Origin: an uncultured Saprospiraceae bacterium | GTDB taxonomy: Bacteria; Bacteroidota; Bacteroidia; Chitinophagales; Saprospiraceae | Length of the DNA stretch: 42,552 nt | Assembly: GCA_937921595.1 (NCBI GenBank) | Contig: CAKZTD010000271.1 | Location: 1-42,552, forward strand | Direction of reading: 5' to 3' | Part shown: positions 2,782 to 36,292 of the stretch, in pieces | Layout: each line of letters starts with the position of its first letter | Position numbering within the stretch: position 1 is the first letter of the stretch | Position numbers and translations under genes: made by a program | The notes under the pieces: generated by a model | The model's database searches: none | What the model saw: only the letters and a program-made list of their open reading frames with translations | Told to the model about the DNA's origin: nothing

Positions 2782-2846
2782 TGATATTTCTCAAGCTCTA
2801 CAATGACAAGCGTCATTCAAAGACGATCCTGTTTGTTTTATTTTTA
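2782..2846 (+). promoter_or_regulatory. Tandem FNR-like sites plus -7 box, promoter of the RNase operon
   Basis: Sites TGATATTTCTCA (2782-2793) and TGACAAGCGTCA (2804-2815) have centres 22 bp apart. The second lies in a perfect inverted repeat AATGAC-N4-GTCATT (2802-2817). The -7 box TATTTTTA (2839-2846; 5 of 6 fixed bases of TAnnTTTG) begins 29.5 bp from the nearer centre. It lies upstream of the ATG at 2862, which argues against the in-frame start at 2781. Confidence 0.75.
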
Positions 2847-2861
2847 CAAAAAATAATTCAA

Positions 2862-4274
2862 ATGAAAAAGAAAAAGAAAAAAGCAAAACTTCGATTTTTG
2901 GGAGGAGCAGGGACGGTTACAGGATCGAAAATATTAGTAGAATCTAAAGGTAAACGAATCCTAGTTGATTGTGGAATGTTTCAGGGAATCAAAGCTTTAC
3001 GAGAAAAAAACTGGGAAGACTTTCCAGTAGAACCTTCTAGCATAGATGCCATTTTATTGACGCATGCACATTTGGATCATTGTGGTTATATTCCTGCATT
3101 AGTGGCTAAAGGTTTTAAAGGAGAAATCCATTGTACACCGCCAACCAAAGACTTGACGGAGGTCATTCTAAGTGATAGTGCCAAGATTCAGGAAGAGGAA
3201 GCGGAGCGAGCCAATCGTTATAAATACACCAAACATAAACCTGCCAAACCGCTTTATACGCTTGTCGATGTAGAATTTGCAATGGGGCTTTTTATTACTC
3301 ATAATCTTCATCAATGGGTCATTCTAAATGGTGGGATGAAGTTTCAATTTAGGAATAGTGGACACCTTCCAGGTTCTGCTTTTATTGAAATGAAAATTAA
3401 TAAAAAGGTTTTTGTATTTTCTGGTGATTTAGGTAGAACAAAACCACTGATTCTTCCCAGTCCTGAGTATATAAAATACGCTGATGTCGTGGTGATGGAA
3501 TCAACTTATGGTGATCGTTTACATACAGAAGAAGATCCACAAAAAGTCTTGGGTGATATTATTTGGGAGACTTATCGGAGGAAAGGTATCTTGATGATTC
3601 CGACCTTTACAGTAGAACGAGCACAAGAATTATTATTTCTTTTAGCAAATCTAAAAGAACAAAACGAACTTCCAGGAATTCAGATTTTTCTGGATAGCCC
3701 GATGGGCGTACAGGCCACTAATATTTTGCTAAAACATTCAGACTGGCATTCGCTTTCCAAAGAAGAATGTCTAGCTATGAATAGCATTGCAGAATTGATT
3801 GTTGATGCTAAAGCTTCAAGAGCGGTCGTTGCGGATTCGGCACCTAAAATAGTCTTAGCTGGAAGTGGAATGATTACTGGTGGACGAATTTTACATTACT
3901 TGAGTCAGTTTGGGGATGATCCGAATAATACGATCTTACTGGCTGGTTTTCAGGCTGCAGGGACGAGAGGACGTACCTTATTGGAAGGTGCGAATGAATT
4001 GAAATTCTTTGGAACTACTCATAAAATTAATGCTCAAATAAAACAAATGCATTCGCTCTCGGGGCATGGAGATCAGCAAGATATACTAAACTGGCTGAGC
4101 CATTTGAAAAATAAACCAGAGCAGATTTTATTAAATCATGGTGAGCCACATCAGTCCAATGCTTTACGAGTAAAGATTCAAGATGAGTTAGGTTTTCCTT
4201 GTCGGACGGTTCAAATGGATCAGCGGATTTCTTTTAAGGTGGAAGAGGAGTTGGTAAGGGAGGATATGCTATAA
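2862..4274 (+). CDS. Metallo-beta-lactamase/beta-CASP RNase family protein
   Basis: This 470-aa protein belongs to the YSH1/CPSF-73-like family of zinc-dependent RNases (COG1236 type). It shows the T-H-A-H-L-D-H-C-G-Y metal motif, the ESTYGDR segment, a beta-CASP region and the C-terminal motifs GSGMITGGR, SLSGHGDQ and LNHGE. The frame is open from 2781, but ATG 2862 is preferred: its Lys-rich start (MKKKKKKAK) runs straight into the conserved LRFLGGAGTVTG strand, and the predicted promoter occupies 2782-2846. It heads an operon with the next two genes. The likely role is RNA processing or turnover in the cytoplasm; the RNA target is unknown. Placement under the FNR-like sites suggests induction at low oxygen. 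Confidence 0.88.
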   Translation: MKKKKKKAKLRFLGGAGTVTGSKILVESKGKRILVDCGMFQGIKALREKNWEDFPVEPSSIDAILLTHAHLDHCGYIPALVAKGFKGEIHCTPPTKDLTEVILSDSAKIQEEEAERANRYKYTKHKPAKPLYTLVDVEFAMGLFITHNLHQWVILNGGMKFQFRNSGHLPGSAFIEMKINKKVFVFSGDLGRTKPLILPSPEYIKYADVVVMESTYGDRLHTEEDPQKVLGDIIWETYRRKGILMIPTFTVERAQELLFLLANLKEQNELPGIQIFLDSPMGVQATNILLKHSDWHSLSKEECLAMNSIAELIVDAKASRAVVADSAPKIVLAGSGMITGGRILHYLSQFGDDPNNTILLAGFQAAGTRGRTLLEGANELKFFGTTHKINAQIKQMHSLSGHGDQQDILNWLSHLKNKPEQILLNHGEPHQSNALRVKIQDELGFPCRTVQMDQRISFKVEEELVREDML

Positions 4275-4279
4275 TATCT

Positions 4280-5077
4280 ATGGATAAAATTTTTAAATTT
4301 ATCAGTTACCCAATCATTTTTCTTACTATTCTTTCATGTGGAATTAGTATTTTTAACAATGAAATTTATCAAGATGGAGTATGGGTTAATGCACAATGGC
4401 TTGGACAAGATATTGTTTCCTTGTTGATTGCGACACCTTTACTTTTGATGGCTACTATTTTTATTCAGAAAGATCAACGGTGGTTGATGATTTTAGGAGG
4501 AGCCTATTTTTATTTTGTTTATGTGTATGCTTTTTTTGTGTTCGGAGCGGAATTAACTTTTTTATATCTTTTTCATGTTCCGATTTTTAGTTTATCGCTC
4601 TTTGGTTTGTTCTTTTCTTTTAGAGAAATATTTAAACCAGAACGTAGTTTTTATCAAAAAAAAGATTTTATAAAATACCTGATTATCGCTTATTTATTAA
4701 TTAATGCTTTGGTGTTGTCATTCCTTTGGTTTGCTGATATTTTTGGTCATTTAATTGACCCTAACTATCGTTCTGATACACCAGATGGATCAGCACCATT
4801 AATTATTTATTCTCTGGATTTAGCAATTGTAATTCCCTTAATGATCTTTTCGGTAATTGGGTATTGGAAAGGCCACAATTTTGGCAATAAATTAATAGGC
4901 ATTATGTTGACTAAGACAAGTACAATAGGATTTATGCTAATGGGAATGAGTTTAAGTATGTATCTTCAAAACTTGAATCCTGATATTTCACTAACAATGT
5001 TATGGTGTTTTATTGGATTAGTTGGATTAGTTCTTAGTATTTTGTTTTTTAAGAGAATTGAGACTTTTAATATTTAA
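4280..5077 (+). CDS. Polytopic membrane protein of unknown function
   Basis: The start is five bases after the RNase stop, so the two genes are surely cotranscribed. The 265-aa product is almost entirely hydrophobic, with about eight predicted membrane segments (around residues 5-25, 45-62, 70-85, 90-112, 130-152, 172-194, 203-225 and 233-258). Charged loops are short; one near 155-170 is rich in Asp and Ser. No signature motif is recognised, so no function is assigned. Confidence 0.75.
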   Translation: MDKIFKFISYPIIFLTILSCGISIFNNEIYQDGVWVNAQWLGQDIVSLLIATPLLLMATIFIQKDQRWLMILGGAYFYFVYVYAFFVFGAELTFLYLFHVPIFSLSLFGLFFSFREIFKPERSFYQKKDFIKYLIIAYLLINALVLSFLWFADIFGHLIDPNYRSDTPDGSAPLIIYSLDLAIVIPLMIFSVIGYWKGHNFGNKLIGIMLTKTSTIGFMLMGMSLSMYLQNLNPDISLTMLWCFIGLVGLVLSILFFKRIETFNI

Positions 5078-5125
5078 GTTATTGGATTCAATTAAATTCT
5101 TCAGGTCTACTTAAAATAAAAAATT

Positions 5126-5881: not shown

Positions 5882-5900
5882 GCAATGACTTCTTAGCCAT

Positions 5901-8003: not shown

Positions 8004-8006
8004 TAT

Positions 8007-9125: not shown

Positions 9126-9221
9126 CAAATATCCTACAATTAAAGTCTCTCGAGACTGATTAATATCAAGTCTGTCAATGATTAATGTCAATTTTTATAC
9201 TCTTTAAAAAAATGATCTTAG
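9126..9221. promoter_or_regulatory. Divergent promoter region with a shared pair of FNR-like sites
   Basis: Sites TGATTAATATCA (9157-9168) and TGATTAATGTCA (9179-9190) have centres 22 bp apart. On the minus strand the -7 box GATATTTG (9133-9126; 5 of 6) begins 29.5 bp from the nearer centre and serves the exporter operon. On the plus strand GATCTTAG (9214-9221; only 4 of 6) is at the same offset for the flavodoxin-like gene. A partial third site (TGACAAATATCC) overlaps the minus -7 box. Confidence 0.72.
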
Positions 9222-10005: not shown

Positions 10006-10221
10006 TTATTTCACTAATTCTTTTTCTATTGTTGATATTCCAATCAAATGATATAAAGGCGAATACCCAAAAATCATTGGAATCGCCAAGACAATACTCA
10101 TTACAAAAGCCGTAGTTGCGTATATCATTGGGATCTCAAAACCCATAAATGAAAAACCTAATAGTAAATCTATTACTACAAAGCGGATGATTCGATCAGT
10201 AATTCCTACATTCTTTTTCAT
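10006..10221 (-). CDS. DUF2892 (YgaP-type) small membrane protein
   Basis: The 71-aa protein begins MKKNVGITDRIIRF, the hallmark of DUF2892, followed by two membrane helices (about 14-35 and 36-52) and YSPLYHLIGIST. In other bacteria this domain occurs alone or fused to rhodanese (YgaP). Its function is not known. It is transcribed divergently from ccoI and has a perfect -7 box at the offset from the FNR-like site seen elsewhere in the window. Confidence 0.85.
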   Translation of the reverse strand: MKKNVGITDRIIRFVVIDLLLGFSFMGFEIPMIYATTAFVMSIVLAIPMIFGYSPLYHLIGISTIEKELVK

Positions 10222-10241: not shown

Positions 10242-10337
10242 CAAAAATAGAATTATGCCTTGATTTCAAATATGACAAAAATCATTATAGTGTATGATTA
10301 AAATCAATGTTTGGATAAGAAAGATCCTGTAATATTG
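10242..10337. promoter_or_regulatory. Divergent DUF2892/ccoI promoters sharing paired FNR-like sites
   Basis: Sites TGACAAAAATCA (10273-10284) and TGATTAAAATCA (10295-10306) have centres 22 bp apart. The minus -7 box TATTTTTG (10249-10242) matches all 6 fixed bases. The plus -7 box TAATATTG (10330-10337) matches 5 of 6. Each begins exactly 29.5 bp from its nearer site. The ccoI ATG is only 6 bases beyond the plus box, so that mRNA may be nearly leaderless. Confidence 0.82.
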
Positions 10338-10342
10338 TGTTT

Positions 10343-12763
10343 ATGAATCAAATCTCCCATAAGAGTCAAATAAAAAAGCAGAAGAAAACGATCTGTTTTC
10401 ATTGTGGGGAGCCTTGTAAAGATGATCAAATTAGGTTAGCCGAAAAGGCATTCTGTTGTGAAGGCTGTAAGATGGTCTACTCAATTTTGGAGGATAATGA
10501 TTTATGTAATTATTATGATTTAAATACGATGGCTGGTGTTTCCCAAAAGGATTATTCCAATAAGGAGTATTCTTTTTTAGAAGACCAGAGTGTAGTAGAT
10601 CGGTTAATTGATTTCACGGATGGTGAAAAAACGAAGGTTCATTTCTATCTACCTCAGATACATTGCTCTTCTTGTTTATGGTTGCTAGAAAATTTATCAC
10701 GACTTCATGAAGGCATTTTAAATTCCAGAGTCGATTTTTTGAAAAAGGAAGTGAGCATTACTTTTTCAGCTTCAAACATGAATCTGAGAGAAGTAGTTGA
10801 GTTATTAGCTAGAGTAGGCTATCCTCCAGAAATTAACCTCAATGACCTTGAACACCAAGAAAAGGTCATTGATAAATCATTATACTATAAACTTGGCTTA
10901 GCTGGATTTGCATTTGGAAATATTATGCTCTTGAGTTTTCCGGAGTATTTGGGGATGAATGCTAAAGCCAACACCACACTCGTGTATTTTTTTGGGTACT
11001 TGAATATACTTTTAGGACTCCCAGTCATTTTTTATAGTGGCTGGGAGTATTTTCGTTCTGCTTGGCAGGGCCTGAAACAAAGACACCTCAATATTGATGT
11101 TCCTATATCATTGGGAATCACTGCTTTGTTTTCAAGAAGTGTATTTGAAATCCTTACACATACCGGTGCCGGTTACTTGGATTCAATGGCTGGATTAGTC
11201 TTTTTTCTTTTAATTGGTAAATGGTTTCAAAAGAGAACTTATGATAAACTTTCCTTTGACCGAGACTATAAATCCTATTTTCCTATTGCTTGTAATAAAA
11301 AAGTAGAAGGAAAAGAAGTTTCGGTGAGTTTAGATAATATTAAAAAAGGAGACATGCTCATCATTCGTCATGGAGAATTGATTCCAGCAGATGCTTACTT
11401 GTTGGACGGTGAATCGAAAATTGACTATAGTTTTGTGACTGGAGAATCTGATCTCATTAAAAAACAAAAAGGAGCTTTATTATACGCCGGAGGGAGACAG
11501 ATGGGTGCAGCGATAGAAATTTCTGTTGCTAAGAAAGTATCGAATAGCTACCTCACTCAATTATGGAACGAAGATACTTTTACCAAATCAAATAAAGTTG
11601 GGGAAGTCAGTGATTTAGCAGATAAAGTAGCCAGGTTCTTTACTTGGGTTATTCTTACTGTTGCTTTTGCCACACTAATTTACTGGCTTCCTAAAGATAT
11701 GGGTACTGCTATCAATGCATTTACCGCAGTTTTGATTATTGCTTGTCCTTGCGCTGTGGCGCTTTCTATTCCATTTACTTTTGGGAATGTACTTCGAATC
11801 TTTTCAAGACAAGGGATTTATTTGAAAAACATTCACGTCATAGAATCTCTTTCAAAGATCAATCATATTGTATTTGACAAAACAGGAACAATCACTAAAG
11901 TTAATTCGGGAAGCGTGCATTATCGTGGAAAACCACTTGAAGAGTATATTGAGCAATTGCTTTTTTCGTTGGTTTATCATTCTTCACATCCTTTGAGTAA
12001 AAGGATTAAAGAGGGGATCCATGACCAATTGCCGCTTTCTGTATTAGACTTTGAGGAAGTAAAAGGTAAGGGTGTCAGAGGTAGGGTAGAAGATCATTAT
12101 GTTCGGATTGGGTCAAACGATTTTATTAATGGCTTGTCAAAAAAAGACACTTTGAAACAAAACGTTTATGTGGAAGTCGATGGAGAAGTTTATGGAGCAT
12201 ATACTTTTGATGGAGCTTATCGACAAGGGCTAAATCAAGTTTTAAACCGGCTTAAAAAATGGGCGGGGCTTTCTTTAATCTCTGGTGATAATGATCGGGA
12301 AAAAGGGATTCTATTGCCTTTGTTTGAAACAGAAAGAAATTTATATTTCAATAAAAAACCTGCTGATAAATTAAATTATATAAAATTATTACAGTCTGAT
12401 AATCAGTATGTTGCAATGATTGGCGATGGCCTGAATGATGCTGGTGCATTAAGTCAGAGCAATGTAGGAATAGTTATCACTGAAACCACATCCAATTTTA
12501 CACCAGCTTGTGATATTATTGTAGATGCGAAAGCTTTTGAAAAACTTCCGTTCATTTTTTCTTTTTCAAAACTAAGTATTCACATTGTCTACTTAGCTTA
12601 TTCAATAGCATTAGTCTACAATATTGTTGGTTTAAGCTATGCGGTGCAGGGGGCATTGTCCCCTGTGATCGCTGCGATACTGATGCCATTGAGTTCCATT
12701 ACTATTGTTCTTTTTGGTGTAGGAGCAAGTACTTTGTTGGCCTATAAAAATAATCTACTTTGA
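10343..12763 (+). CDS. ccoI: Copper-translocating P1B-type ATPase for cbb3 oxidase assembly
   Basis: The 806-aa protein is of CcoI/FixI type. An N-terminal Cys cluster (C18-x2-C21-x3-C25, then F-C-C-E-G-C) is the metal-binding domain typical of these pumps. An HMA-like domain with HCSSC follows. The core shows TGES, the intramembrane CPC motif (IIACPCAVAL), DKTGT, the SHPL motif and GDGLNDA. It should export Cu to the periplasmic side for the CuB centre of CcoN. ATG 10343 is preferred to the in-frame GTG 10337, which lies in the -7 box. It precedes the ccoS-ccoNOQP-GH genes but has its own promoter and terminator. Confidence 0.93.
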   Translation: MNQISHKSQIKKQKKTICFHCGEPCKDDQIRLAEKAFCCEGCKMVYSILEDNDLCNYYDLNTMAGVSQKDYSNKEYSFLEDQSVVDRLIDFTDGEKTKVHFYLPQIHCSSCLWLLENLSRLHEGILNSRVDFLKKEVSITFSASNMNLREVVELLARVGYPPEINLNDLEHQEKVIDKSLYYKLGLAGFAFGNIMLLSFPEYLGMNAKANTTLVYFFGYLNILLGLPVIFYSGWEYFRSAWQGLKQRHLNIDVPISLGITALFSRSVFEILTHTGAGYLDSMAGLVFFLLIGKWFQKRTYDKLSFDRDYKSYFPIACNKKVEGKEVSVSLDNIKKGDMLIIRHGELIPADAYLLDGESKIDYSFVTGESDLIKKQKGALLYAGGRQMGAAIEISVAKKVSNSYLTQLWNEDTFTKSNKVGEVSDLADKVARFFTWVILTVAFATLIYWLPKDMGTAINAFTAVLIIACPCAVALSIPFTFGNVLRIFSRQGIYLKNIHVIESLSKINHIVFDKTGTITKVNSGSVHYRGKPLEEYIEQLLFSLVYHSSHPLSKRIKEGIHDQLPLSVLDFEEVKGKGVRGRVEDHYVRIGSNDFINGLSKKDTLKQNVYVEVDGEVYGAYTFDGAYRQGLNQVLNRLKKWAGLSLISGDNDREKGILLPLFETERNLYFNKKPADKLNYIKLLQSDNQYVAMIGDGLNDAGALSQSNVGIVITETTSNFTPACDIIVDAKAFEKLPFIFSFSKLSIHIVYLAYSIALVYNIVGLSYAVQGALSPVIAAILMPLSSITIVLFGVGASTLLAYKNNLL

Positions 12764-12924: not shown

Positions 12925-12989
12925 TGACAAAACTCACTAGCTCCATTGATTAAAATCATCTGTAGGTTTTGCATGTGACACTAACTTGC
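12925..12989 (+). promoter_or_regulatory. Promoter of the cbb3 oxidase operon with paired FNR-like sites
   Basis: Sites TGACAAAACTCA (12925-12936; one mismatch in the right half) and TGATTAAAATCA (12947-12958) have centres 22 bp apart. The predicted -7 position (12982-12989, TAACTTGC) matches 4 of 6 fixed bases at the standard 29.5-bp offset. It lies 17 bp before the ccoS start. Confidence 0.7.
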
Positions 12990-13282: not shown

Positions 13283-15421
13283 ATGTCAACTATAGAACAT
13301 TTTAAATACGATAACGAGATCGTTAAGAAGTTTGCAATTGCGACAATCACTTTTGGGATTGTTGGGATGCTCGTGGGCCTGTGGATTGCATTGGAGCTGG
13401 TCTTTCCAGTTTTGAATTTTGATTTACCTTATCTCTCCTTCGGAAGACTAAGACCATTGCATACTAATGCTGTGATTTTTGCTTTTGTAGGAAATGGGAT
13501 TTTTATGGGAGTATATTACTCCTTACAACGATTGCTCAAAGCACCGATGTATAGCAAGGCTTTAAGTAATATTCACTTCTGGGGATGGCAGGCGATTATC
13601 CTAGCCGCCGCGATTACTTTACCATTAGGGTTTACCAGTAGTAAAGAATATGCAGAATTAGAATGGCCAATTGATATTGCGATAGCAGTGATCTGGGTGA
13701 TTTTTGGAATCAATATGATCGGGACTATTTTAAAAAGAAGAGAAAAACACCTTTATGTAGCCATCTGGTTTTACCTAGCAACTTGGGTAACGGTCACCAT
13801 GCTTCACATTTTTAATAATCTGGAAATCCCGGTTTCGCTTTTCAAAAGTTACTCCGTTTTTGCAGGTGTACAAGATGCCTTGGTACAATGGTGGTATGGT
13901 CACAATGCGGTTGCCTTCTTTTTGACAACACCATATTTAGGACTGATGTATTACTACTTGCCAAAAGCTGCGAATCGACCAGTTTACTCTTATCGACTTT
14001 CAATCATTCACTTTTGGGCCTTGATTTTTATTTACATCTGGGCTGGTCCTCACCATTTATTATATACTTCTTTACCAGACTGGGCACAATCATTAGGGAT
14101 GGTTTTCTCTTTGATGTTGATCGCACCTTCTTGGGGTGGAATGTTGAATGGACTATTGACTTTAAGAGGTGCTTGGGATAGGGTTCGTACAGATCCAATT
14201 CTGAAATTTATGGTCGTTGCGATTACGGCTTATGGGATGTCAACTTTTGAAGGACCGATGATGTCAATCAAATCTTTTAATGCGATCACACACTATACGG
14301 ATTGGACGATTGCTCACGTACACGTAGGAGCATTGGGATGGAATGGGATGTTGACATTCGGAGTTTTATATTGGTTGATTCCTAAAATTTATAGAACAAA
14401 ATTATACTCAGTCAAGTTGGCCAATATTCATTTTTGGTTGGGAACGCTTGGGATTATATTTTATGCTGTTCCATTATACTGGGGAGGGGTAACACAACAA
14501 TTGATGTGGAAACAATTTTCTCCAGATGGTTTTTTGGTTTATCCAAATTTCCTGGAAACAGTAACTCAGATTATTCCAATGTATGCGATAAGAGCATTTG
14601 GAGGTTTGATGTTTTTCAGTGGATTGTTTGTGATGCTTTATAATCTAGTAAAAACAATGGTACATGGAAATTTTGAAGCGGAAGAATCTGCTTCAGCTCC
14701 AGCGATGGAAAAACATGTTACTAAGAAAGGAGAACACTGGCATAGAGTTTTAGAAAGAAAATCTATCCTGTTGACTGGCTTGTCTTTAGTCGCAGTAGCC
14801 ATAGGCGGAATGATGGAAATCCTTCCAATGATGTGGGTAGAATCTAATGTTCCAAAAATTGCGACCGTAGAACCGTACACTCCATTAGAATTGCATGGTA
14901 GAGATTTATACATCCGAGAAGGTTGTGTTGGTTGTCACTCACAGATGATTCGACCATTCCGATCGGAGACAGAGCGTTATGGAGAGTTTTCAAAATCAGG
15001 AGAGTTTATCTATGATCGACCATTCCTCTGGGGCTCCAAACGTACCGGACCAGATTTGCATAGGATAGGAGGGAAGTATTCTGATTCTTGGCATTACAAT
15101 CATATGATTGATCCACAAAGTATGTCGCCGGGTTCTATAATGCCAGCTTATCCGTGGATGGTTACTAATGATCTCGATACGACGACGACGATCAGAAAAA
15201 TTGAGGTGTTACAAATGTTGGATACACCATATCCCAAAGGTTTTGCTACCAGAGCTAACAAAGATTTAGAAAAGCAAGCCAAAGGAGTCGCAGATCGATT
15301 GAGATCAGATGGTGTCGAGATAGAACGATTGGAAGATAAAGAGATTGTTGCTTTGATTGCTTATTTACAGCGACTTGGAACTGATATTAAAAAATTAGAA
15401 AATCCAAAAGCTAAAAACTAA
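13283..15421 (+). CDS. ccoNO: Fused cbb3 oxidase subunit I/II (CcoN-CcoO)
   Basis: The 712-aa protein joins two subunits that are separate in Proteobacteria. The CcoN part (about 1-470) has a dozen membrane helices and the heme and CuB histidines in [29 protein letters not shown] and [12 protein letters not shown]. The CcoO part begins near 490 with a membrane helix, then heme c motif C548-V-G-C-H552 and GSIMPAYPW, which supplies the Met ligand. The complex reduces O2 to water with high affinity and pumps protons in the inner membrane. A ccoNO fusion is known in Bacteroidota. It is preceded by ccoS and the 34-aa ORF and followed 5 bases later by ccoQ. Confidence 0.95.
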
Positions 15422-19587: not shown

Positions 19588-19920
19588 TTATGTATTTGAA
19601 AGCCTTTCTTTTTCTTTTAAAATTTCTTTTTTATCGATTTCTTTTTTCTTTTTTAGCAATTGAGCTCTTAATTTATGAGTAACTGCAGCAGTCGCTTTTT
19701 CATAAGTATCAGCGTATGCTTGCGCAAATAATTCAGGGCCTGGCATTCTTAAACGAATTTCAATTAATTTATCATTGATTCCTTCATTGACACCTTTTTT
19801 TAAAAAGATATCCGCATGTAAAATACGGTTGTCAACGCCGGATAATTTTTCCATTTTTTCCTGAATGACTTCTTTTAGATAATCATTAACATCCCAAGGG
19901 GCTTGAATATTTAATTTCAT
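19588..19920 (-). CDS. hpf: Short ribosome hibernation factor (HPF/RaiA family)
   Basis: The 110-aa protein has the S30AE fold pattern: an N-terminal beta strand (MKLNIQAP), an amphipathic helix, ADIFLKK, then a strand with RLRMPGPELFAQAYADT, and a helix KATAAVTHKLRAQLLKKKKE. It has no long C-terminal dimerisation domain, so it is the short type. Such proteins inactivate ribosomes in the stationary or stressed state. It lies 179 bp downstream of the AhpD-like gene on the same strand and may be read from that gene's FNR-site promoter. No convincing paired site lies directly in front of it. Confidence 0.88.
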   Translation of the reverse strand: MKLNIQAPWDVNDYLKEVIQEKMEKLSGVDNRILHADIFLKKGVNEGINDKLIEIRLRMPGPELFAQAYADTYEKATAAVTHKLRAQLLKKKKEIDKKEILKEKERLSNT

Positions 19921-20099: not shown

Positions 20100-20465
20100 C
20101 TAATTGCTAACAACTTCCTCATCTTGCTTTACGACAAACTGTCTAAGAGCAGCCAAAGCTTCACAACCATAAATCAACGAAGGGCCTCCTCCCATCATTA
20201 CAGATACACCGATGGTTTCTATTATTTCTTCATGATTAGCTCCTGCCTTTAGTGCATCATGTATATGGAAGGCAATACATCCATCACAGTGAACGGCGAT
20301 CGCAATTCCCAATGCAATTAATTCTTTGTTTTTTGTACTCAAAGCACCGTCAGCAATAGCCGCTTTATGTAAAAGGTTAAAACCTTTCATCGTCTCCGGA
20401 ATCTCGGTATTTAAATCTCCGATGAGTGAAACAAATTGTTGATAATGCTGTGGATAATTTTTCAT
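20100..20465 (-). CDS. Carboxymuconolactone decarboxylase/AhpD-like protein
   Basis: The 121-aa protein has the AhpD-type motif HCDGCIAFHIHDALKAG (Cys-x2-Cys plus the downstream His) around residues 48-66, and a Gly-rich GVSVMMGGGPS helix. AhpD-like proteins use this CxxC for disulfide or peroxide reduction and form all-helical trimers. Cytoplasmic. It has two FNR-like sites upstream and a -7 box at the standard offset. Confidence 0.87.
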   Translation of the reverse strand: MKNYPQHYQQFVSLIGDLNTEIPETMKGFNLLHKAAIADGALSTKNKELIALGIAIAVHCDGCIAFHIHDALKAGANHEEIIETIGVSVMMGGGPSLIYGCEALAALRQFVVKQDEEVVSN

Positions 20466-20477: not shown

Positions 20478-20542
20478 TAAAGATACCCTGATCTAAGCCC
20501 AGAGTCATTGAGTAAAGTCATTTTTAATGATGATTTTTGTCA
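20478..20542 (-). promoter_or_regulatory. Promoter of the AhpD-like gene with paired FNR-like sites
   Basis: Sites TGAGTAAAGTCA (20509-20520) and TGATTTTTGTCA (20531-20542) have centres 22 bp apart. The minus -7 box TATCTTTA (20485-20478; 5 of 6) begins 29.5 bp from the nearer centre. The ATG is at 20465. hpf may be transcribed from here as well. Confidence 0.75.
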
Positions 20543-21997: not shown

Positions 21998-22062
21998 TGA
22001 TCAATATCATTATAGTGAGTGCATAAGATCATTATAAAGAGGTTTGAAATGATCTATTTTTG
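21998..22062 (+). promoter_or_regulatory. Promoter of the 121-aa unknown gene with paired FNR-like sites
   Basis: TGATCAATATCA (21998-22009) lies inside a perfect inverted repeat AATGAT-N4-ATCATT (21996-22011). TGCATAAGATCA (22020-22031) is centred 22 bp further. The -7 box TATTTTTG (22055-22062) matches 6 of 6 and begins exactly 29.5 bp from the nearer centre. Confidence 0.8.
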
Positions 22063-22115: not shown

Positions 22116-22481
22116 ATGAAAATATCTAAAAATAGACGCCTAAAAGATTTGCAAAATGAATTCAGTAGTTTCTTTCCATTTTTACGAATAGAATTTTATC
22201 GCAATCCACACTTGGAAGGAATGTCTTCTGATAAAAACGAAGTCTTAGATCCAGAGTTGAAAGTGGGCGAAGTTTGTGATTTATATACTTTTGGTTTTAT
22301 GCCATTGAATGGCTATCAAAAAGTTGGAAATTTTGAACAATTATTTGCTAAAACTTTCGGCTTAAATGTTCAAGTGTTTCGGAAATCTTACGGTAAATGG
22401 TTGCAGACTTGGGCAACGGATATTTGGACGCTTGAGGAGCAAAATGATAGAGGTAGAATAATGGGGAATAAGACGGCGTGA
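22116..22481 (+). CDS. Conserved-looking 121-aa protein of unknown function
   Basis: This is a small soluble protein without a signal peptide. It starts with a basic segment (MKISKNRRLKDLQNEFSSFF) and has aromatic-rich stretches (RIEFYRNPHLEG, GKWLQTWATDIWTLEEQND). I do not recognise a domain. It stands alone between a divergent lipoprotein gene and a convergent CBS gene. Its promoter has a perfect -7 box and a perfect palindromic FNR-like site, so it is a likely direct regulon member. Confidence 0.75.
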   Translation: MKISKNRRLKDLQNEFSSFFPFLRIEFYRNPHLEGMSSDKNEVLDPELKVGEVCDLYTFGFMPLNGYQKVGNFEQLFAKTFGLNVQVFRKSYGKWLQTWATDIWTLEEQNDRGRIMGNKTA

Positions 22482-24864: not shown

Positions 24865-25479
24865 CTATTTGATAATCTCAGAAAATGCTTGCTTCAAGTG
24901 ATCAAAAGATTGAGAGATTTCATCCATGAAATGCTCAAGGCTTTTTCCATCAGAAGAATTCTCTTCATCAAGCATCGCAATTGTTTTATCTAAAGATTCA
25001 ACTAAAGCTTTTTGATCAGCTTCAATTTTTTCGCGATTATCAAATTCAGTAAGTGCCAAATCTACTCGATAAGCATCCAGTACTTCTTTTAATTCATTCA
25101 ACTGGTTGGTTACTCGATCTCCAGCATCTTTGTAAACCGTACGGATCAAGTATTCAGCTTCATGAACTAATCTCATATTGCCTTTTCTACGGGTTTCGTA
25201 AGTTCGTTCTGCTGTTGGCATTTCTGCATTTAAAGCACCGTTCAACTCTGTAAGTTTTCTAACCAAAGAAATTCGCTGTTCAGAAATTTTAGATTCCGTT
25301 TGTTTGAATTGTGCTTTTTGTTGATTGAAAAATTTAGAGAAATTTTTCTTTTCTGATTTTATGACATCTTTAGCTTCTGCTTTACCCAGAGATAATTGTA
25401 GCTCTAATTCTTCAATCATTCCTTTCCATTGGTTAAGTTTTGATTTTCCAAATTCCAATACTTCTTTTTTGGTATCCAT
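24865..25479 (-). CDS. Coiled-coil protein, first gene of the UbiB/CBS operon
   Basis: The 204-aa cytoplasmic protein is almost entirely helical and charged, with no signal peptide or membrane segment and long heptad-like stretches (about 15-85 and 105-180). I do not recognise a family. It is transcribed divergently from the fixL-like gene, from a shared regulatory region. Its position ahead of ubiB and the CBS gene suggests a shared task, perhaps as an adaptor or stress-related scaffold; this is a guess. Confidence 0.75.
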   Translation of the reverse strand: MDTKKEVLEFGKSKLNQWKGMIEELELQLSLGKAEAKDVIKSEKKNFSKFFNQQKAQFKQTESKISEQRISLVRKLTELNGALNAEMPTAERTYETRRKGNMRLVHEAEYLIRTVYKDAGDRVTNQLNELKEVLDAYRVDLALTEFDNREKIEADQKALVESLDKTIAMLDEENSSDGKSLEHFMDEISQSFDHLKQAFSEIIK

Positions 25480-25524: not shown

Positions 25525-25620
25525 CAAAGGTGAAGAATCATGTTTTAAAAAAAAGTGACATTAATCATGGGGTAAATTGATTTTTATCATCTGTAGGGTC
25601 GCTATAATAAGGTTTCTTTG
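25525..25620. promoter_or_regulatory. Divergent coiled-coil/fixL promoters sharing paired FNR-like sites
   Basis: Sites TGACATTAATCA (25556-25567) and TGATTTTTATCA (25578-25589) have centres 22 bp apart. The minus -7 box CACCTTTG (25532-25525; 5 of 6) and plus -7 box TTTCTTTG (25613-25620; 5 of 6) each begin 29.5 bp from the nearer site. This predicts autoregulation of the sensor-regulator operon. Confidence 0.8.
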
Positions 25621-25670: not shown

Positions 25671-26978
25671 ATGCCTTTATTTCAACCAGATTTTTTAGGA
25701 TCCTCTGTACTGCTGAAAGCAATATTTGATACTGCTAATGATGGAATTATTACCATCAATGAACGAGGGATCATTCAGATGGTGAATAATGCAATAAGTG
25801 AGTTGTTTCAATATACAAGTAAAGAGCTGATCGGGAAAAACATAAGTATACTGATGCCTGAGCCTCATCATTCCATGCATGATGATTATATCATGAATTA
25901 TAAAGAAACTGGAAAGAAGAAGATAATCGGAATTGGTCGAAAGGTAGATGGAAGAAGAAAAGATGGTTCTTTATTTCCTCTTCGCTTAAGTGTTAGTGAA
26001 ATTAAGGTAGAAGGTCATTTGGTTTTTACTGGGATCATCCATGATTTAAGTGAACAAAAAAAGGCAGAAGAAAATATTCGACAGTTAAATCAAGAACTTG
26101 AGGAGCGAGTTGAACTTAGAACAAATGAGCTTTCTGAAACGGTTAAAAAAATTACAATTACCAATGAGAAATTGGCGAATGAAATATCAGAACGAAAAAA
26201 AATAGAAGAATTACTTCGTGAAACAGAAACCGAAATCAGAGGAGCATTAGAAAAAGAAAAAGAACTGAATGAACTCAAATCGAGATTTGTAACAATGGCT
26301 TCTCATGAGTTTCGTACTCCTTTGAGTGCTATCCTTTCATCTGCTGCATTGATCGAAATGTATAGTGAAGAAGGACAAGAACCTTTAAGGGTAAAACATT
26401 TGCATAGAATAAAAAAATCAATTGGTAATCTCACCAATATTCTAAATGATTTTTTATCACTCAGCAAGTTAGAAGAAGGAAGGATTCAAGTCAATCCAGA
26501 ATCTTTTTTATTCTCTGATTTTTGCGAAGAAGTCATTGATGAAATTAAAGGTCTTTTGAAAACGGAGCAAAATATAGAACATGTCGCCGAAGGAAAAGAT
26601 GAGGTGGTTTTTTTAGATAAACACTTGATGAAGAATATTCTATTTAATCTGCTTTCAAATGCGATCAAATATTCCTCAGAAGGGAAAACCATCTATTGTA
26701 AAAGTGAAATGAAAGCAAATGAAGTCATCATTACAATCAGAGATGAAGGATTGGGGATTCCAAAATCAGAACAGATTCATCTATTTACTCGATTCTTTAG
26801 AGCAGGCAATGTGACCAATATCCAAGGGACTGGTCTTGGGCTAAACATTGTAAAACAATACGTAAAATTATTAAACGGAAACATAACATTTACCAGCGAA
26901 ATTGAAGTTGGTACGACCTTTATTATAACACTTCCTAAAAGCATCAAACATGAAAAAGATTCTACTTATAGAGGATAA
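25671..26978 (+). CDS. fixL: FixL-like heme-PAS oxygen sensor histidine kinase
   Basis: This is a 435-aa soluble kinase. The PAS domain (about 10-125) reads LMPEPHHSMHDDYIMNY, then IIGIGRKVDGRRKDGS, closely like rhizobial FixL. His70 aligns with the heme ligand His200 of Bradyrhizobium FixL and Arg90 with the oxygen-sensing Arg220; the 20-residue spacing is identical. Position 206 (Arg in FixL) is Asn76. A coiled coil (about 125-200) leads to the HisKA domain with phospho-acceptor His212 (ASHEFRTP). The ATPase domain has NILFNLLSNAIKY, DEGLGIP and GTGLGLNIV. No membrane segments. It overlaps the regulator gene by 29 bp. Expected behaviour: active when the heme is deoxygenated. Confidence 0.87.
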   Translation: MPLFQPDFLGSSVLLKAIFDTANDGIITINERGIIQMVNNAISELFQYTSKELIGKNISILMPEPHHSMHDDYIMNYKETGKKKIIGIGRKVDGRRKDGSLFPLRLSVSEIKVEGHLVFTGIIHDLSEQKKAEENIRQLNQELEERVELRTNELSETVKKITITNEKLANEISERKKIEELLRETETEIRGALEKEKELNELKSRFVTMASHEFRTPLSAILSSAALIEMYSEEGQEPLRVKHLHRIKKSIGNLTNILNDFLSLSKLEEGRIQVNPESFLFSDFCEEVIDEIKGLLKTEQNIEHVAEGKDEVVFLDKHLMKNILFNLLSNAIKYSSEGKTIYCKSEMKANEVIITIRDEGLGIPKSEQIHLFTRFFRAGNVTNIQGTGLGLNIVKQYVKLLNGNITFTSEIEVGTTFIITLPKSIKHEKDSTYRG

Positions 26979-28005
26979 TTTAGAAGTTCGAGAAAATCTT
27001 GAAGAAATTCTAAACCTCTCTAGTTATGAGGTATACACTGCCGAAAATGGCGTTGAGGGTGTTGAAATGGCATTAAAAGTTGATCCTGACCTTATCATTT
27101 GCGACGTGATGATGCCAAAGCTTGATGGTTTTGGTGTACTAAGAATTCTTGGTCAAAAGCCTCAGACGAGCGATATTCCTTTTATCTTTTTGACTGCTAA
27201 AGCAGAAAAAAACGACTTCCGATTAGGGATGAATCTTGGTGCTGATGATTATATTACCAAACCTTTTCACCATAAAGAATTATTGGATGCAGTTGAGATT
27301 CGACTCAAAAAATCTGAGCGAATCAGTAAGGCTTTTAAGCAAAATCCAATGGATAATAAAAGACTACTCGATGAATACAAAGGGCAGAAAGAGTTAGAGA
27401 AATTAGCAGAAGCCAAGGAAGTTAGATTTTATCGAAAGAAAGATTTAATTTTTAAAGAAGGTGAATACCCTAAGCGATTGTATTATGTGGTAAAAGGAAA
27501 AGTGAAGACTTTTCGTAGCAATGAATTTGGAAAAGAATTCATCACCGGAGTTTATAACAAAGGAGAATTTCTAGGCTTCCAGGCTTTATTAAAAGAAGGA
27601 ACTTATAATGAGTATGCTGCAGCAATGGAAGATGCAGAGGTGAGTTTTATTCCTAAAGAAGATTTTTTAGAATTGCTAGAAGGTAGTAGAGATTTTACAG
27701 CTAGGTTTATTAAAATGCTAGCCAATAATGTCATAGAAAAAGAAGAAGAGTTACTCAAATTGGCTTACAATTCGATTCGGAAACGTGTTGCTGATGCCTT
27801 GGTGAAACTTAACAGGAAATTCCAAGAAGATGGTCAAGTAAAAATGGATCTTATGCGTGATGATCTCGCAGGATTAGTCGGAACGACCAAAGAATCTATT
27901 TCTAGAATGTTGACAGAATTTAAAACGGAAAAACTAATCAACATCGATTACCTTGGAGTGATCACTGTAGTAGATGAAAATAAATTGGCTAATCTCCCAA
28001 ATTGA
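26950..28005 (+). CDS. Receiver-Crp/Fnr fusion transcription regulator (FixJ-FixK-like)
   Basis: The 351-aa protein joins a response-regulator receiver (1-120; acidic pair E8-D9, phospho-acceptor Asp52, Thr82, Lys104) to a Crp-type cyclic-nucleotide-like sensor domain (about 150-250) and a Crp HTH (about 270-345). The recognition helix TTKESISRM has Glu315, Ser318 and Arg319 in the E-x-x-S-R spacing used by FNR to read TTGAT half-sites. Cys51 is the only cysteine, so no FNR-type iron-sulfur cluster is possible; oxygen information must arrive by phosphorylation from the overlapping kinase. It is the obvious candidate for binding the TGAy-N4-rTCA sites across this window. Confidence 0.93.
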   Translation: MKKILLIEDNLEVRENLEEILNLSSYEVYTAENGVEGVEMALKVDPDLIICDVMMPKLDGFGVLRILGQKPQTSDIPFIFLTAKAEKNDFRLGMNLGADDYITKPFHHKELLDAVEIRLKKSERISKAFKQNPMDNKRLLDEYKGQKELEKLAEAKEVRFYRKKDLIFKEGEYPKRLYYVVKGKVKTFRSNEFGKEFITGVYNKGEFLGFQALLKEGTYNEYAAAMEDAEVSFIPKEDFLELLEGSRDFTARFIKMLANNVIEKEEELLKLAYNSIRKRVADALVKLNRKFQEDGQVKMDLMRDDLAGLVGTTKESISRMLTEFKTEKLINIDYLGVITVVDENKLANLPN

Positions 28006-29161: not shown

Positions 29162-29257
29162 TAAAGCTCACGAAACTAGCGACTTATAATGGTGATATTA
29201 ATCAATGAGACTGTTGAGTTTAGTCAATCTTTTGGTGATTTCAAGCTTGTACTTTTG
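29162..29257. promoter_or_regulatory. Divergent DUF6544-like/mlaE promoters sharing paired FNR-like sites
   Basis: Sites TGATATTAATCA (29193-29204) and TGAGTTTAGTCA (29215-29226) have centres 22 bp apart. The plus -7 box TACTTTTG (29250-29257) matches 6 of 6; the minus box GAGCTTTA (29169-29162) matches 4 of 6. Both begin 29.5 bp from the nearer site. The mlaE ATG starts 5 bases after the plus box. Confidence 0.8.
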
Positions 29258-32867: not shown

Positions 32868-32925
32868 ATATTTACCGCCGATAGAATGAAAGGTGTAGGA
32901 GTAAAATAATTTTAAAAATTACCTG

Positions 32926-35427
32926 TTAGGCGATATTCTTCTTTTTAAAAATTACCCAAATCTCAAACCACATCACTGATAAAAAACCAATACCAGCACT
33001 CCTCAACAGATCATCAATTCCCAGTTGTTCAAAACCTAGAAAGGAAGTAAAGACTGGAACAAAAAGCATCAATCCCAGCATAACTAAAGTGATTCCAATG
33101 ATCATTGGGACTAAATTGTTTTTATACTTCAAGGTGGTGAAGATTGAATAATCAAAAGACCGATTTACCAAAGTCAAAAATATATTCGCCATAACTAAAA
33201 CTGTAAATACCATCGTCCTTGTCGCTGCTTCTCCATATCCATTTTGAACAGCAAACTGATAAGCTAGCATTGCTCCAGCCGTTATCATCAATCCCTGAAT
33301 GACGCTCATCGTCAACTCACTCCAATTAAAAAAAGAAAGAGACAAAGGCCTAGGTTTTTGAATCATCGTATTTTTTTCCATCGGTTCATTCTCATAGATG
33401 ATAGAGCAAGTTGGCCCCATGATCAATTCCAATAAAATTACATGAACTGGAGAAAAAATATTGGGATAAATCCAACCCAAAGCAAGTGGAATAAAAACCG
33501 TTAAAATAATCGGAATATGAATTGAAATAATATAGCGGATTGCTTTTTTAAGGTTGGTGTAAATCTTCCGGCCTGTCGCAACAGCGTCTACCATTTTTGA
33601 TAAATCATCTTCTACTAAAATCAGTGAAGAAGCCTGCTTTGCGATTTCTGTTCCTCGCTTTCCCATAGCGATACCAATGTGCGCCGCTTTAAGTGCGGGG
33701 CCATCATTGACGCCATCACCCGTCATGGCAACGATCTCACCGCTGTTTTTTAACGCATTAATAATTCTAAGTTTTGCATCTGGAAACATTCGGGTAAAAA
33801 CCTGAGTATCCAATACTTTTTTCTGAAGGGAAGCATCGTCGAGTTGCATCAATTCATCACCACTCATACTTTTATGATGATTTTTGAAATTGATTTGTTT
33901 GGCAATAGAAGCCGTCGTTTCTGCATTATCACCAGTGATGATTTTCACATCAATCCCTGCCTTATTGAACGTTTCAAAAACCTCTTGAATATTCTCTTTT
34001 GGAGGATCATAGAAAGCGACTAATCCTTTAAATTGAAAATCAAAATCTTGCTGCCTTTTTGGAAAATCATCACCCGTAAAATCCGCAGTACCCACGCCCA
34101 ACAAACGATAACCTTTCTTTGCCAGATTTTGAATGACTACTCGTATCCCTTCTTTTTCTTTGTCGTTTAAATTAGAAACAGCTAGTAAGGCTTCCGGAGC
34201 ACCTTTGGCAGCGATAATCCTTTTACCGGTTTCGTTTTCAAAGAGATGAGTCATCATCGGAGGCTTTCCTCCAAGTGGATATTCATGAATCATTTTAAAA
34301 AAAGGGCGTTCATCCTTTTTGATTTTTTTTGCATAAGTCTCATGTAAGGCAATCTCCATGGGATCAAAAGGAATCGGTTCGCTCGACCACATCGAAAGTT
34401 GAAGTAATTCTTCTGCTGAGGAATTAAAATTTTCGGTTGGATCTAAAATCTCTCCAGTGTCATAAACAAAAAACTTAGCCAGGCTCATCTCGTTTTTAGT
34501 AATTGTCCCTGTTTTATCAACACAGATAATTGTAGCAATGCCAAGCGTTTCAATTGTTTTCATTTGCTTCACGATGATCCCTTTTTTCATCATCCGCCAG
34601 GCACCAATTGCCATGAAAGTGGTAAAAGCAACAGGAATTTCTTCGGGTAATACACTCATCGCCAAAGTCAAGGCATTCAGCAGACTATCGAGGAGATCGT
34701 AAGAGATAAAATAATTGATGCCCCAAACCAAGAGAAAAATAATCGCTCCTGCGATTACCATTTTTTTTACAAAATCTCCAATTTGAATTTCCAATGGAGT
34801 CTCTTCTTCTTCAATCTCCTCCATACTTTTTCCAATCTTTCCCAATGTGGTGTTATGACCAATCGCATTGATCGTTACGACGGCCAAACCACTGGCGACG
34901 GTCGTCCCTTGATAAACTGTATGGTCTTCTTTTTTTGAATCTTTATAGATGGAAAGAGATTCTCCGGTAAGGATGGATTCGTTGACCGAAAAATCATTGG
35001 AGTGAATAATATTACCATCAGCAGGGATGATGTTACCTTCTTCAACAATCAGGCGATCACCGATGACCAATTCTTCGCTTTTGATCTCAACGACTTGTGG
35101 TCCTCTGATTACCTTGACATTAGCTTGGGTATAAGTTTTTAGCTTTTCCAAAGCATTGCGACTCCTTGAATCCTGATACAATGAAATCGAAGCAACCAAT
35201 ACAATCGCTACTGCTAAAAAGATACCATCACCAATATCTCCACTGATAAAATAAATGGCAGAAGCCACCAATAGTAAAAGAACCATTGGTTCTTTTACTA
35301 AACTTTTTAGGATATCGAGGAAAGGATTTTCTTTTTTAAATTCTAAACGGTTGGCGCCATGTTTTGCTCTGGATTCGACAACTTGCTGATCAGACAAACC
35401 TTGAATTGCGAAATTGTCTATCTCCAT
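32926..35427 (-). CDS. P2-type cation-transporting ATPase
   Basis: The 833-aa protein has the P-type ATPase order: an N-terminal cation ATPase domain, two helices, an actuator with LTGES, the M4 ion motif region SVLPEEIPVAF, the phosphorylation site CVDKTGTITK, the nucleotide domain, the hinge TGDGVNDGPAL, and six C-terminal helices. It lacks the Cys motifs of metal pumps, so it belongs with Ca2+/H+/Na+-type pumps; PEEIP in place of PEGL leaves the ion uncertain. It lies 125 bp after paralog B on the same strand, with only a small CTGAT/ATCAG palindrome between, so it could be read from that gene's FNR-site promoter. No site lies directly upstream. Confidence 0.88.
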   Translation of the reverse strand: MEIDNFAIQGLSDQQVVESRAKHGANRLEFKKENPFLDILKSLVKEPMVLLLLVASAIYFISGDIGDGIFLAVAIVLVASISLYQDSRSRNALEKLKTYTQANVKVIRGPQVVEIKSEELVIGDRLIVEEGNIIPADGNIIHSNDFSVNESILTGESLSIYKDSKKEDHTVYQGTTVASGLAVVTINAIGHNTTLGKIGKSMEEIEEEETPLEIQIGDFVKKMVIAGAIIFLLVWGINYFISYDLLDSLLNALTLAMSVLPEEIPVAFTTFMAIGAWRMMKKGIIVKQMKTIETLGIATIICVDKTGTITKNEMSLAKFFVYDTGEILDPTENFNSSAEELLQLSMWSSEPIPFDPMEIALHETYAKKIKKDERPFFKMIHEYPLGGKPPMMTHLFENETGKRIIAAKGAPEALLAVSNLNDKEKEGIRVVIQNLAKKGYRLLGVGTADFTGDDFPKRQQDFDFQFKGLVAFYDPPKENIQEVFETFNKAGIDVKIITGDNAETTASIAKQINFKNHHKSMSGDELMQLDDASLQKKVLDTQVFTRMFPDAKLRIINALKNSGEIVAMTGDGVNDGPALKAAHIGIAMGKRGTEIAKQASSLILVEDDLSKMVDAVATGRKIYTNLKKAIRYIISIHIPIILTVFIPLALGWIYPNIFSPVHVILLELIMGPTCSIIYENEPMEKNTMIQKPRPLSLSFFNWSELTMSVIQGLMITAGAMLAYQFAVQNGYGEAATRTMVFTVLVMANIFLTLVNRSFDYSIFTTLKYKNNLVPMIIGITLVMLGLMLFVPVFTSFLGFEQLGIDDLLRSAGIGFLSVMWFEIWVIFKKKNIA

Positions 35428-35552
35428 AGTTTATGTTTGTGCGTTAAAAAAGTATACAGCCTTGAGATTTTTGGTTCTTTTGTGTTAAGATAAAAAGAAT
35501 TGACGAAAATATAATCAGCTGATAATCAGTTTCAAAACTGTAAAATAAAATA

Positions 35553-36092
35553 TCAAAGTTTATAAAAAGCCCCAACTCCAAAACTAGGAATCATCGGCAA
35601 GTCAAAATTTCTTTCCAACCAAGTATTTTTCGGTTCTATAAAAAGTTTGTTTTGATGAGATAACTCGTAACTCACTCCTGCACTTATATCAATGCCAAAC
35701 CGTTCTGTGATATTTATTTCTCGACCTAATCGAGTGTTAAAAAACAAATATTCATACAATTTTAAATCAGTTTCATTCCAAAAATAATTAACGCCCAATT
35801 TCAAATAATAAGGACGTCTGGATGATAATTCAGAAAATCCAGCGTAATGTATGTAAACATCATTGGAATAAGAAAACATCAATTCATCATCAATAAAGTT
35901 TGTGCCAACACTATAACCAACTTGAATTTGTTGCCATTCAAACCGGACACCAATGTTTGCTAATTCTGGAACACCGAAACCTGCAGATATCGTCACATCT
36001 CGATTTCCTTGCTGGCCAAAGGATTCAAAACTTGAACCTAAGAATAAAGCAAATGTAAATAAGATCGGATAAAATAATTTAGTGATTCTCAT
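35553..36092 (-). CDS. Outer-membrane beta-barrel-like protein, paralog B
   Basis: The 179-aa protein has a signal peptide (about 1-26, ending FESFGQ) and a beta-rich body ending in GAFYKL. It is a paralog of 32210-32755; the two flank the P-type ATPase. Unlike paralog A it has a strong FNR-like site with a -7 box at the standard offset, so the two copies are probably regulated differently. Function unknown. Confidence 0.75.
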   Translation of the reverse strand: MRITKLFYPILFTFALFLGSSFESFGQQGNRDVTISAGFGVPELANIGVRFEWQQIQVGYSVGTNFIDDELMFSYSNDVYIHYAGFSELSSRRPYYLKLGVNYFWNETDLKLYEYLFFNTRLGREINITERFGIDISAGVSYELSHQNKLFIEPKNTWLERNFDLPMIPSFGVGAFYKL

Positions 36093-36138
36093 CTTTTTTG
36101 AATTTTATAGTTTCAAGATATTCATCTATTTTCTTTTA

Positions 36139-36203
36139 TAAAGGTATCGTCAATTAGCTATGATAAGAATGATTTTTGTCATTTAAAGGAGTGTTTTTAA
36201 TCA
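36139..36203 (-). promoter_or_regulatory. Promoter of barrel paralog B with paired FNR-like sites
   Basis: TGATTTTTGTCA (36170-36181) and TGTTTTTAATCA (36192-36203, one mismatch) have centres 22 bp apart. The minus -7 box TACCTTTA (36146-36139; 5 of 6) begins 29.5 bp from the nearer centre. Confidence 0.75.
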
Positions 36204-36227
36204 AGGTTGAAGAGTAGATGGATTCAT

Positions 36228-36292
36228 TGATAGAAGTCAATACACCAATTGCAAAAAGTCATTTTCTGAATTGAAGATAGCTTGCATCTTTG
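36228..36292 (+). promoter_or_regulatory. Promoter of the DUF4136 operon with paired FNR-like sites
   Basis: TGATAGAAGTCA (36228-36239) and TGCAAAAAGTCA (36250-36261; left half imperfect) have centres 22 bp apart. The -7 box CATCTTTG (36285-36292; 5 of 6) begins 29.5 bp from the nearer centre. This pair was found by applying the spacing rule from the other promoters. It is separate from the pair at 36170-36203. Confidence 0.72.

Follow-up and report, generated by a model that had tools for sequence, protein, structure and literature searches.

Paired FNR-like sites 22 bp apart at a fixed distance from the -7 element suggest a low-oxygen regulon under a receiver-CRP regulator in Saprospiraceae

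Paired sites, promoter boxes and genes of the window

The stretch of DNA analyzed here, called the window throughout, comprises 42,552 nt of an uncultured Saprospiraceae bacterium (GCA_937921595.1, contig CAKZTD010000271.1, positions 1 to 42,552), the genome of which (G000) consists of 465 contigs and 8.04 Mb. It holds the genes of a cbb3 oxidase, a PAS histidine kinase, and a response regulator in which a receiver is joined to a CRP-type activator (receiver-CRP). An initial annotation had reported ten pairs of TGAY-N4-RTCA-like sites at 22-bp spacing in this window, and all of them were found to be present. The coordinates that it named as centres had to be corrected, as they mark the first T of TGAY and the dyads lie 5.5 bp further (2787.5/2809.5 and so on). 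Every site scan used the core TGAYNNNNRTCA (TGAY-N4-RTCA type). The -7 box was scored on the six fixed bases of TAnnTTTG, and its offset was taken as the distance between the near dyad and the base at which the box starts. Fourteen directed boxes were located at exactly 29.5 bp, as had been claimed, with scores of 6/6 in three, 5/6 in eight, and 4/6 in three. The features are as follows; ORF stands for open reading frame and HTH for helix-turn-helix.

2782..2815, + strand: site pair with dyads at 2787.5 and 2809.5 (12-bp cores), ahead of an MBL/beta-CASP hydrolase gene (Pfam Beta-Casp, RMMBL)
2839-2846: box TATTTTTA, rightward of pair 2782, 5/6
9157..9190, - strand: perfect site pair (dyads 9162.5 and 9184.5)
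9126-9133: box GATATTTG, leftward of pair 9157, toward an HlyD-like/ABC gene set (HlyD-like label from the ORF reading, without family search)
9214-9221: box GATCTTAG, rightward of pair 9157, only 4/6
10273..10306, bidirectional: site pair
10330-10337: box TAATATTG, rightward of pair 10273, 5/6, to a heavy-metal P-type ATPase gene (10337-12763)
10242-10249: box TATTTTTG, leftward of pair 10273, 6/6, to a 71-aa ORF (10006-10221)
12925..12958, + strand: site pair before the cbb3 oxidase genes, in the order 58-aa ORF, fused ccoNO (13283-15421), ccoP-like gene, ccoG
12982-12989: box TAACTTGC, rightward of pair 12925 (ccoN), 4/6
20509..20542, - strand: site pair before a carboxymuconolactone-decarboxylase-family gene (20100-20465, PF02627)
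20478-20485: box TATCTTTA, leftward of pair 20509, 5/6
21998..22031, + strand: site pair with a weak near site, GTGCATAAGATCAT, before ORF 22116-22481
22055-22062: box TATTTTTG, rightward of pair 21998, 6/6
25556..25589, bidirectional: perfect site pair
25613-25620: box TTTCTTTG, rightward of pair 25556, 5/6, to the kinase/receiver-CRP operon
25525-25532: box CACCTTTG, leftward of pair 25556, 5/6, to ORF 24865-25479
25671..26978, + strand: PAS histidine kinase, its PAS most similar, among PDB entries, to the heme domain of FixL
26950..28005, + strand: receiver-CRP response regulator with REC (Asp52), a cNMP-binding fold, and a Crp-type HTH with E315, S318, and R319
29193..29226, both directions: site pair
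29250-29257: box TACTTTTG, rightward of pair 29193, to MlaE-type transporter genes (TIGR00056)
29162-29169: box GAGCTTTA, leftward of pair 29193, 4/6, to a DUF6544 gene (PF20181)
36170..36203, - strand: site pair before ORF 35553-36092
36139-36146: box TACCTTTA, leftward of pair 36170, 5/6
36228..36261, + strand: site pair with a weak near site, TTGCAAAAAGTCAT, before ORF 36282-36866
36285-36292: box CATCTTTG, rightward of pair 36228, 5/6

With at most one mismatch in each site, nine 22-bp pairs were counted in the window, and every other spacing from 10 to 60 bp gave two at most. Forty dinucleotide shuffles, which served as the window control, yielded a mean of 0.2 and a maximum of 2 such pairs; perfect sites formed three 22-bp pairs in the window and none in 100 shuffles. 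Eight of the nine belong to the ten pairs given above, and the ninth (21963/21985), absent from the initial annotation, has boxes of only 3/6. Pairs 21998/22020 and 36228/36250 carry two mismatches to the double core, and the other eight carry one at most. At 36170-36261, four sites within about 90 bp form two adjoining pairs, one for each divergent gene.

A box of at least 5/6 occurs at 1.4% of the local window positions and was present in 11 of 20 directed pairs (binomial 5e-16); this figure is a post hoc one, since the pairs were preselected and the last one was found by the rule. The pair at 36228, which had been offered as a small internal test, is for its part not an independent case. 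Since boxes of at least 4/6 occur at 8% of the local positions, those of 9157 rightward, 12925 rightward, and 29193 leftward are not significant singly; thus, 11 of the 14 promoters are solid and these three lie within chance. The ccoN variant, TAACTTGC, was seen again at the same offset at C8:4108 (L129).

The genes behind these promoters include the cbb3 oxidase set (fused ccoNO, ccoG, the ccoP-like gene, and a CcoI-like ATPase), the MBL/beta-CASP hydrolase, the carboxymuconolactone-decarboxylase-family gene, and MlaE. In the case of the oxidase, the families NF011053, TIGR00780, and TIGR02745 scored above cut-off, and TIGR00782 (ccoP-like) scored below its curated cut-off. The heavy-metal P-type ATPase at 10337-12763 is probably CcoI, as judged by gene position. 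The ccoN-ccoO fusion at 13283-15421 is a putative bifunctional cbb3 oxidase subunit I/II.

Spacing and offset in the genome and in relatives

In the genome-wide and relatives' scans, the reversed pattern was used as the control. Perfect sites with gaps of 0-30 bp formed 26 pairs in the whole genome, of which 19 were exactly 22 bp apart, one was at 21 bp, two were at 23 bp, and four were elsewhere; the control gave 3 perfect pairs. When at most one mismatch in all was allowed, 46 pairs at 22 bp were obtained against 0 in the control, 8 of them inside the window, and at most two mismatches gave 105 against 15. Many of the outside-window pairs cluster in contigs such as C91, C93, C130, C140, and C189. 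Among the 38 outside-window pairs with at most one mismatch in all, 35 fall outside ATG-started ORFs of at least 300 nt. A box of at least 5/6 stands at 29.5 bp in 25 of the 76 corresponding directed pairs, 13 of these boxes being 6/6, and no other offset exceeded four (binomial 1e-27, using the window's local box rate). Such a box was found on at least one side of 23 of the 38 pairs and on both sides of two.

When the near site and the box were searched exactly and without conditioning on a pair, 17 matches were obtained genome-wide, and 13 of them have a partner site at 22 bp (at least 6/8 bases). One further match has a perfect partner at 21 bp, and the remaining three (C140:2825, C173:16170, and C33:4495) have none. 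With at most one mismatch, 68 matches were found against 21 for the reversed control; the partner check covered 45 of these 68, comprising all 17 exact matches and 28 of the 51 one-mismatch matches, the latter leaning toward stretches picked for pairs. The enrichment of the combined pattern outside the window, for which a genome scan had been proposed, and the presence of a second site upstream were thus both borne out. The class II geometry agrees with these data as well: the 29.5 bp place the near dyad at -41.5 if the first box base is -12, and the offset recurs outside the window and in relatives. When 42 promoters of this genome, those of the window among them, were aligned, the two dimer cores and the -7 element stood out in the profile, their strength being partly built in because cores and box were selection criteria, and positions -35 to -13, with the unselected -33 region, hold little information (at most 0.35 bits).

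Two further arrangements were observed. At four places, a lone TGTGA-N6-TCAC-like site lies 29.5 bp ahead of a -7 box and has no 22-bp partner, namely at C140:2825-2867 and C173:16170-16212 (exact) and, with one mismatch, at C95:278-320 and C95:1877-1919, which suggests a different CRP-type regulator that uses the class II geometry alone. Three-site arrays at 22-bp steps were found at G000:C91:17936-17991, G000:C140:2614-2669, G090:C2:2518584-2518639, and G088:C9:96410-96465, a hint that dimers could stack beyond two.

Similar results were obtained for relatives. In nineteen receiver-CRP loci (259 kb), the spacing was 22 bp in 28 pairs and 23 bp in 6, and 61 loci that matched the receiver only (967 kb), which come from varied phyla, held no pair at 22 bp. 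Saprospiraceae account for 9 of the 19 named receiver-CRP loci and for 6 of the 7 closest. In the first set of relatives, the box stood at 29.5 bp in 24 of 56 directed pairs (binomial 5e-30, again at the window's local rate). In the second set, which shares 6 of its 19 distinct pairs with the first, it did so in 7 of 35 directed pairs, or 4 of 23 after removal of the shared pairs; no other offset exceeded four in either set. The own genome and 118 relatives together (119 genomes) gave 753 pairs at 22 bp against 34 in the control. Near-equal use of 23 bp was seen in G005 (19, compared with 23 at 22 bp) and G023 (20, compared with 27 at 22 bp), and some lineages may use 23 bp as a second spacing.

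An origin of the pairs as side effects of an AT-rich local composition or of coding periodicity has a negligible probability. Single sites and boxes are indeed common in AT-rich intergenic DNA, and the 21-bp spacing, a multiple of three, is common too (416 pairs in the 119 genomes, a count that coding periodicity may raise). However, 22 is not a multiple of three, neither shuffles nor the reversed pattern reproduce the 22-bp pairs, the box holds its offset to the exact base, and the outside-window pairs lie almost all outside the longer ORFs; chance, composition, and coding periodicity were rejected on these grounds. A second alternative, that a pair represents two back-to-back single class II sites serving divergent genes without cooperation between dimers, is distinctly improbable. 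It is favored by the boxes of at least 5/6 at 29.5 bp on both sides of 10273 and 25556 in the window and of L132 84 and L134 11111, but both-sided boxes are confined to the 2 of 38 pairs outside the window and 2 of 10 within it, and three-site arrays at 22 bp exist. Divergent-only use was rejected on the scarcity of both-sided boxes and on the partner count of 13 of 17.

The receiver-CRP, its kinase and other candidate binders

In the window receiver-CRP, Response_reg matches residues 4-116, and the output part consists of cNMP_binding and HTH_Crp_2. Fifty receiver-CRP sequences, including the window protein and a few near-duplicates, were compared: 49 of them retain the phospho-acceptor Asp (one gap), all 50 have both Glu315 and Arg319 in the recognition helix, and position 318 is Ser in 6 (window included) and Ile in 44. 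The helix E..SR and the TTGAY-N4-RTCAA sites agree by sequence with the DNA specificity of FNR and FixK. FixK2 (4i2o) matches the CRP part with E 9.7e-12, and several other CRP-family chains score better. The output HTH is not of the LuxR/GerE type that defines FixJ, and the presence of a receiver sets the protein apart from FixK. It has no N-terminal cysteine cluster of the FNR type; iron-sulphur sensing is not expected of it because it contains only one cysteine.

The PAS of the neighboring kinase was compared with FixL and gave E 2.1e-31 with 8js5, the best match in PDB, and E 7e-31 with 1dp6. Its His70 and Arg90 align with the proximal His (200) and Arg220 of FixL, and R206 and H214 of FixL are replaced by N and K, in what we take to be the FixL numbering. 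A kinase PAS with both heme-site residues adjoins the receiver-CRP in 28 of 50 loci. A perfect pair precedes the kinase/receiver-CRP operon itself, which is predicted from the sequence to be autoregulated through pair 25556. Elsewhere in the genome, a second FixL-like kinase (two PAS matches) stands with a receiver-CRP that is 61% identical (G000:C150:396-3288, L148). That this second regulator is driven by its own 23-bp pair found no support, as there is no 5/6 box at 29.5 bp on either side.

Accordingly, the numbers of pairs were compared with the presence of the regulator. In the 118 relatives, own genome excluded, the median was 6 pairs with a receiver-CRP match at E <=1e-30 (n=69) and 1 without (n=49; p=3e-11). 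G103 and G114, with matches that span the CRP part only, were left out of the receiver-CRP group, and G050 (two pieces, two internal stops) and G052 (protein end only, internal stops) were kept in it. In 294 Bacteroidia genomes, own again excluded and grouped by best E alone, the median was 4 pairs with a strong match (E <=1e-55, n=142) and 0 with no match (n=71; p=2e-22), the two genome samples overlapping in at least 5 genomes and the tests treating genomes as independent of shared ancestry. The weaker matches (9e-26 to 6e-40, n=81), in which receiver-only and CRP-only matches are pooled, gave a median of 2 pairs, with 166 pairs in total against 18 in the control. A strong match was present in 143 of the 295 sampled Bacteroidia genomes when the own genome was included.

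Nine genomes counted as lacking a receiver-CRP still have at least 4 pairs. In five of them (G088, G099, G103, G107, and G111), an open frame of 234-268 aa was the best CRP relative; it carries C-x2-C at its N-terminus along with more cysteines, which we take to be the pattern of the iron-sulphur FNR. The receiver-less proteins L179-L183, from genomes other than that of the window, have C-x2-C and additional cysteines. In the four cysteine-type genomes scanned for the box (G088, G099, G103, and G111), it stands at 29.5 bp in 9 of 21 pairs. In a small tree, the cysteine-type proteins join the receiver-CRP rather than the other CRP proteins of the genome (87/84, moderate support, midpoint root). 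The idea that the receiver domain is required for pairing was rejected, as these four receiver-less FNR-like genomes share the layout. The promoter plan thus appears to be a property of this branch of activators, with the oxygen input exchanged and the sensor interchangeable. The other four of the nine, G030, G035, G039, and G041, gave a strong match neither to receiver-CRP nor to a cysteine-type FNR, although each has at least 4 pairs: G041 holds a 151-aa fragment (39% identity), G030 and G035 hold only distant CRP proteins, and no CRP relative was found in G039 at E 1e-12. Incomplete assemblies or another binder are suggested as alternatives for these four.

It is rather unlikely that another CRP/FNR-family protein, either the C110 protein of this genome or a cysteine-rich FNR-like one in relatives, binds the pairs and that the receiver-CRP is merely one target. 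The genome contains seven HTH_Crp_2 matches. The helix of the C110 protein reads E-A-V-S-R, and two sites 21 bp apart, with a 6/6 box at 29.5 bp, lie beside the gene of this protein (G000:C110:1350-1413, L013); moreover, the receiver-less FNR-like proteins occur together with pairs in five genomes, and with the box in the four scanned. However, only the two receiver-CRPs and C110 have an FNR-type helix among the seven, the other four reading S-R-Q-T. The receiver-CRP also tracks pair numbers in two genome samples, and the perfect pair stands before its own operon. The initial annotation had proposed footprinting with the receiver-CRP protein; recognition helix, gene position, and co-occurrence support it as the likely binder.

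Proposed mechanism and comparison with known systems

At a probability of about three in four, we read this locus as part of a low-oxygen regulon under a fused two-component activator, in which the receiver-CRP would bind as two adjacent dimers, one at the class II position -41.5 and one at -63.5. Several observations weigh against this reading. In 15 of the 38 outside-window pairs, no 5/6 box stands at 29.5 bp in either direction, and 7 of these reach 4/6. The 23-bp spacing is also raised in the 119 genomes (238 against 40 in the control). Three of the 69 relatives with a receiver-CRP (G019, G097, and G101) have no pair at one mismatch or fewer. The receiver-only loci of varied phyla have a G+C of 42%, compared with 37% in the receiver-CRP loci, and the co-occurrence tests carry the sample overlap and shared ancestry described above. 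No FixL-like PAS with both residues was found beside the gene in 22 of the 50 receiver-CRP loci (17 without a match, 2 cut off, and 3 lacking one or both residues), some of which have little upstream DNA, and the locus of the closest relative (L019, 72% identity) gave no match within 10 kb on each side. In addition, the helices of the second receiver-CRP (C150) and of the C110 protein could also fit the sites.

Under the proposed regulon, the kinase with the FixL-like heme PAS would be active at low oxygen and would phosphorylate Asp52 of the receiver-CRP. The activated protein would then bind as two neighboring dimers on the observed sites, with dyads 22 bp, or about two helix turns, apart. 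The near dimer may act as a class II activator that replaces the -33 contact and cooperates with RNA polymerase at TAnnTTTG, the -7 element of Bacteroidota. The far dimer would have a stabilizing role in the complex, and a contact of it with the alpha C-terminal domain is possible. The same promoter plan may have been kept while the oxygen input was swapped between the receiver-CRP and a cysteine-rich FNR-like protein. We would put at only slightly better than even the wider claim of a class-wide Bacteroidota oxygen regulon, in which two same-face dimers (sometimes three) form a nearly obligate unit. This unit would have been kept while the input was swapped, being provided either by an FNR-like protein of the iron-sulphur type or by a FixL-type kinase with a receiver-fused activator.

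For the promoters outside the window, 20 ORFs selected by eye from the 34 downstream ones were searched for families; two had none and two matched only below cut-off. Boxes of 5/6 or 6/6 stand before genes of Usp, Hsp20, MBL-rhodanese, CBS, and P-type ATPases. Boxes of 4/6 stand before ClpB, PRTase, an AMP-binding enzyme, a macro-domain protein, and a flavodoxin, and two-mismatch pairs before FtsH and pyruvate kinase. An HPF/YfiA-like ribosome hibernation gene (below its curated cut-off) lies inside the block of the window at 19588-19920.

The strict pattern would allow a low-oxygen regulon to be proposed from sequence alone in many Bacteroidota genomes. It also offers a candidate case of a promoter layout outliving a change of sensor and a testable claim about the way in which the polymerase of Bacteroidota works together with two CRP-type dimers at 22-bp spacing. 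In PMC8510549, the CRP/FNR homologues of a Saprospiraceae assembly are treated as MalR-like, and the words receiver and tandem are absent from this paper and from PMC12531629. Among the matches listed for the open-access literature, no receiver-CRP regulon or 22-bp FNR pairs were described for Bacteroidota.

The window shares with the rhizobial FixL-FixJ-FixK system a kinase with a predicted FixL-type heme PAS, a CRP-type activator with a TTGAY-N4-RTCAA-like site, and a cbb3 oxidase with its assembly genes as predicted targets. In rhizobia, the order runs from FixL through FixJ and fixK to FixK, and FixK boxes precede fixNOQP. The alphaproteobacterial FixLJ/FixK network is described in PMC4999443. 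Unlike that cascade, the present system has the receiver and the FixK-like activator in one protein without a LuxR-type FixJ step, so that two steps of the textbook cascade appear merged, and it uses 22-bp paired sites with the Bacteroidota -7 element as the promoter box. Class II promoters of FNR have the same core site, the dyad 29.5 bp before the box (which here would be -41.5), and presumably the same recognition-helix residues E and R. FNR itself, however, is a [4Fe-4S] oxygen sensor, whereas the window protein has the single cysteine Cys51, and most of the promoters described here have an additional site at -63.5. Class III or tandem CRP promoters likewise combine a class II dimer with an upstream dimer of the same activator, the latter at varied class I positions, whereas here it is fixed at -63.5 across a regulon. 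The actinobacterial DosR/DevR hypoxia regulon comprises Usp, Hsp20, CBS, PRTase, and P-type ATPase targets under a heme-sensor kinase; DosR belongs to the LuxR type and has another site, and the target sets of the FixK and DosR regulons resemble those found here. Thus, FixL- and FNR-type class II control is already known, and what appears to be new is the fusion of receiver and activator together with the fixed double-dimer promoter plan.

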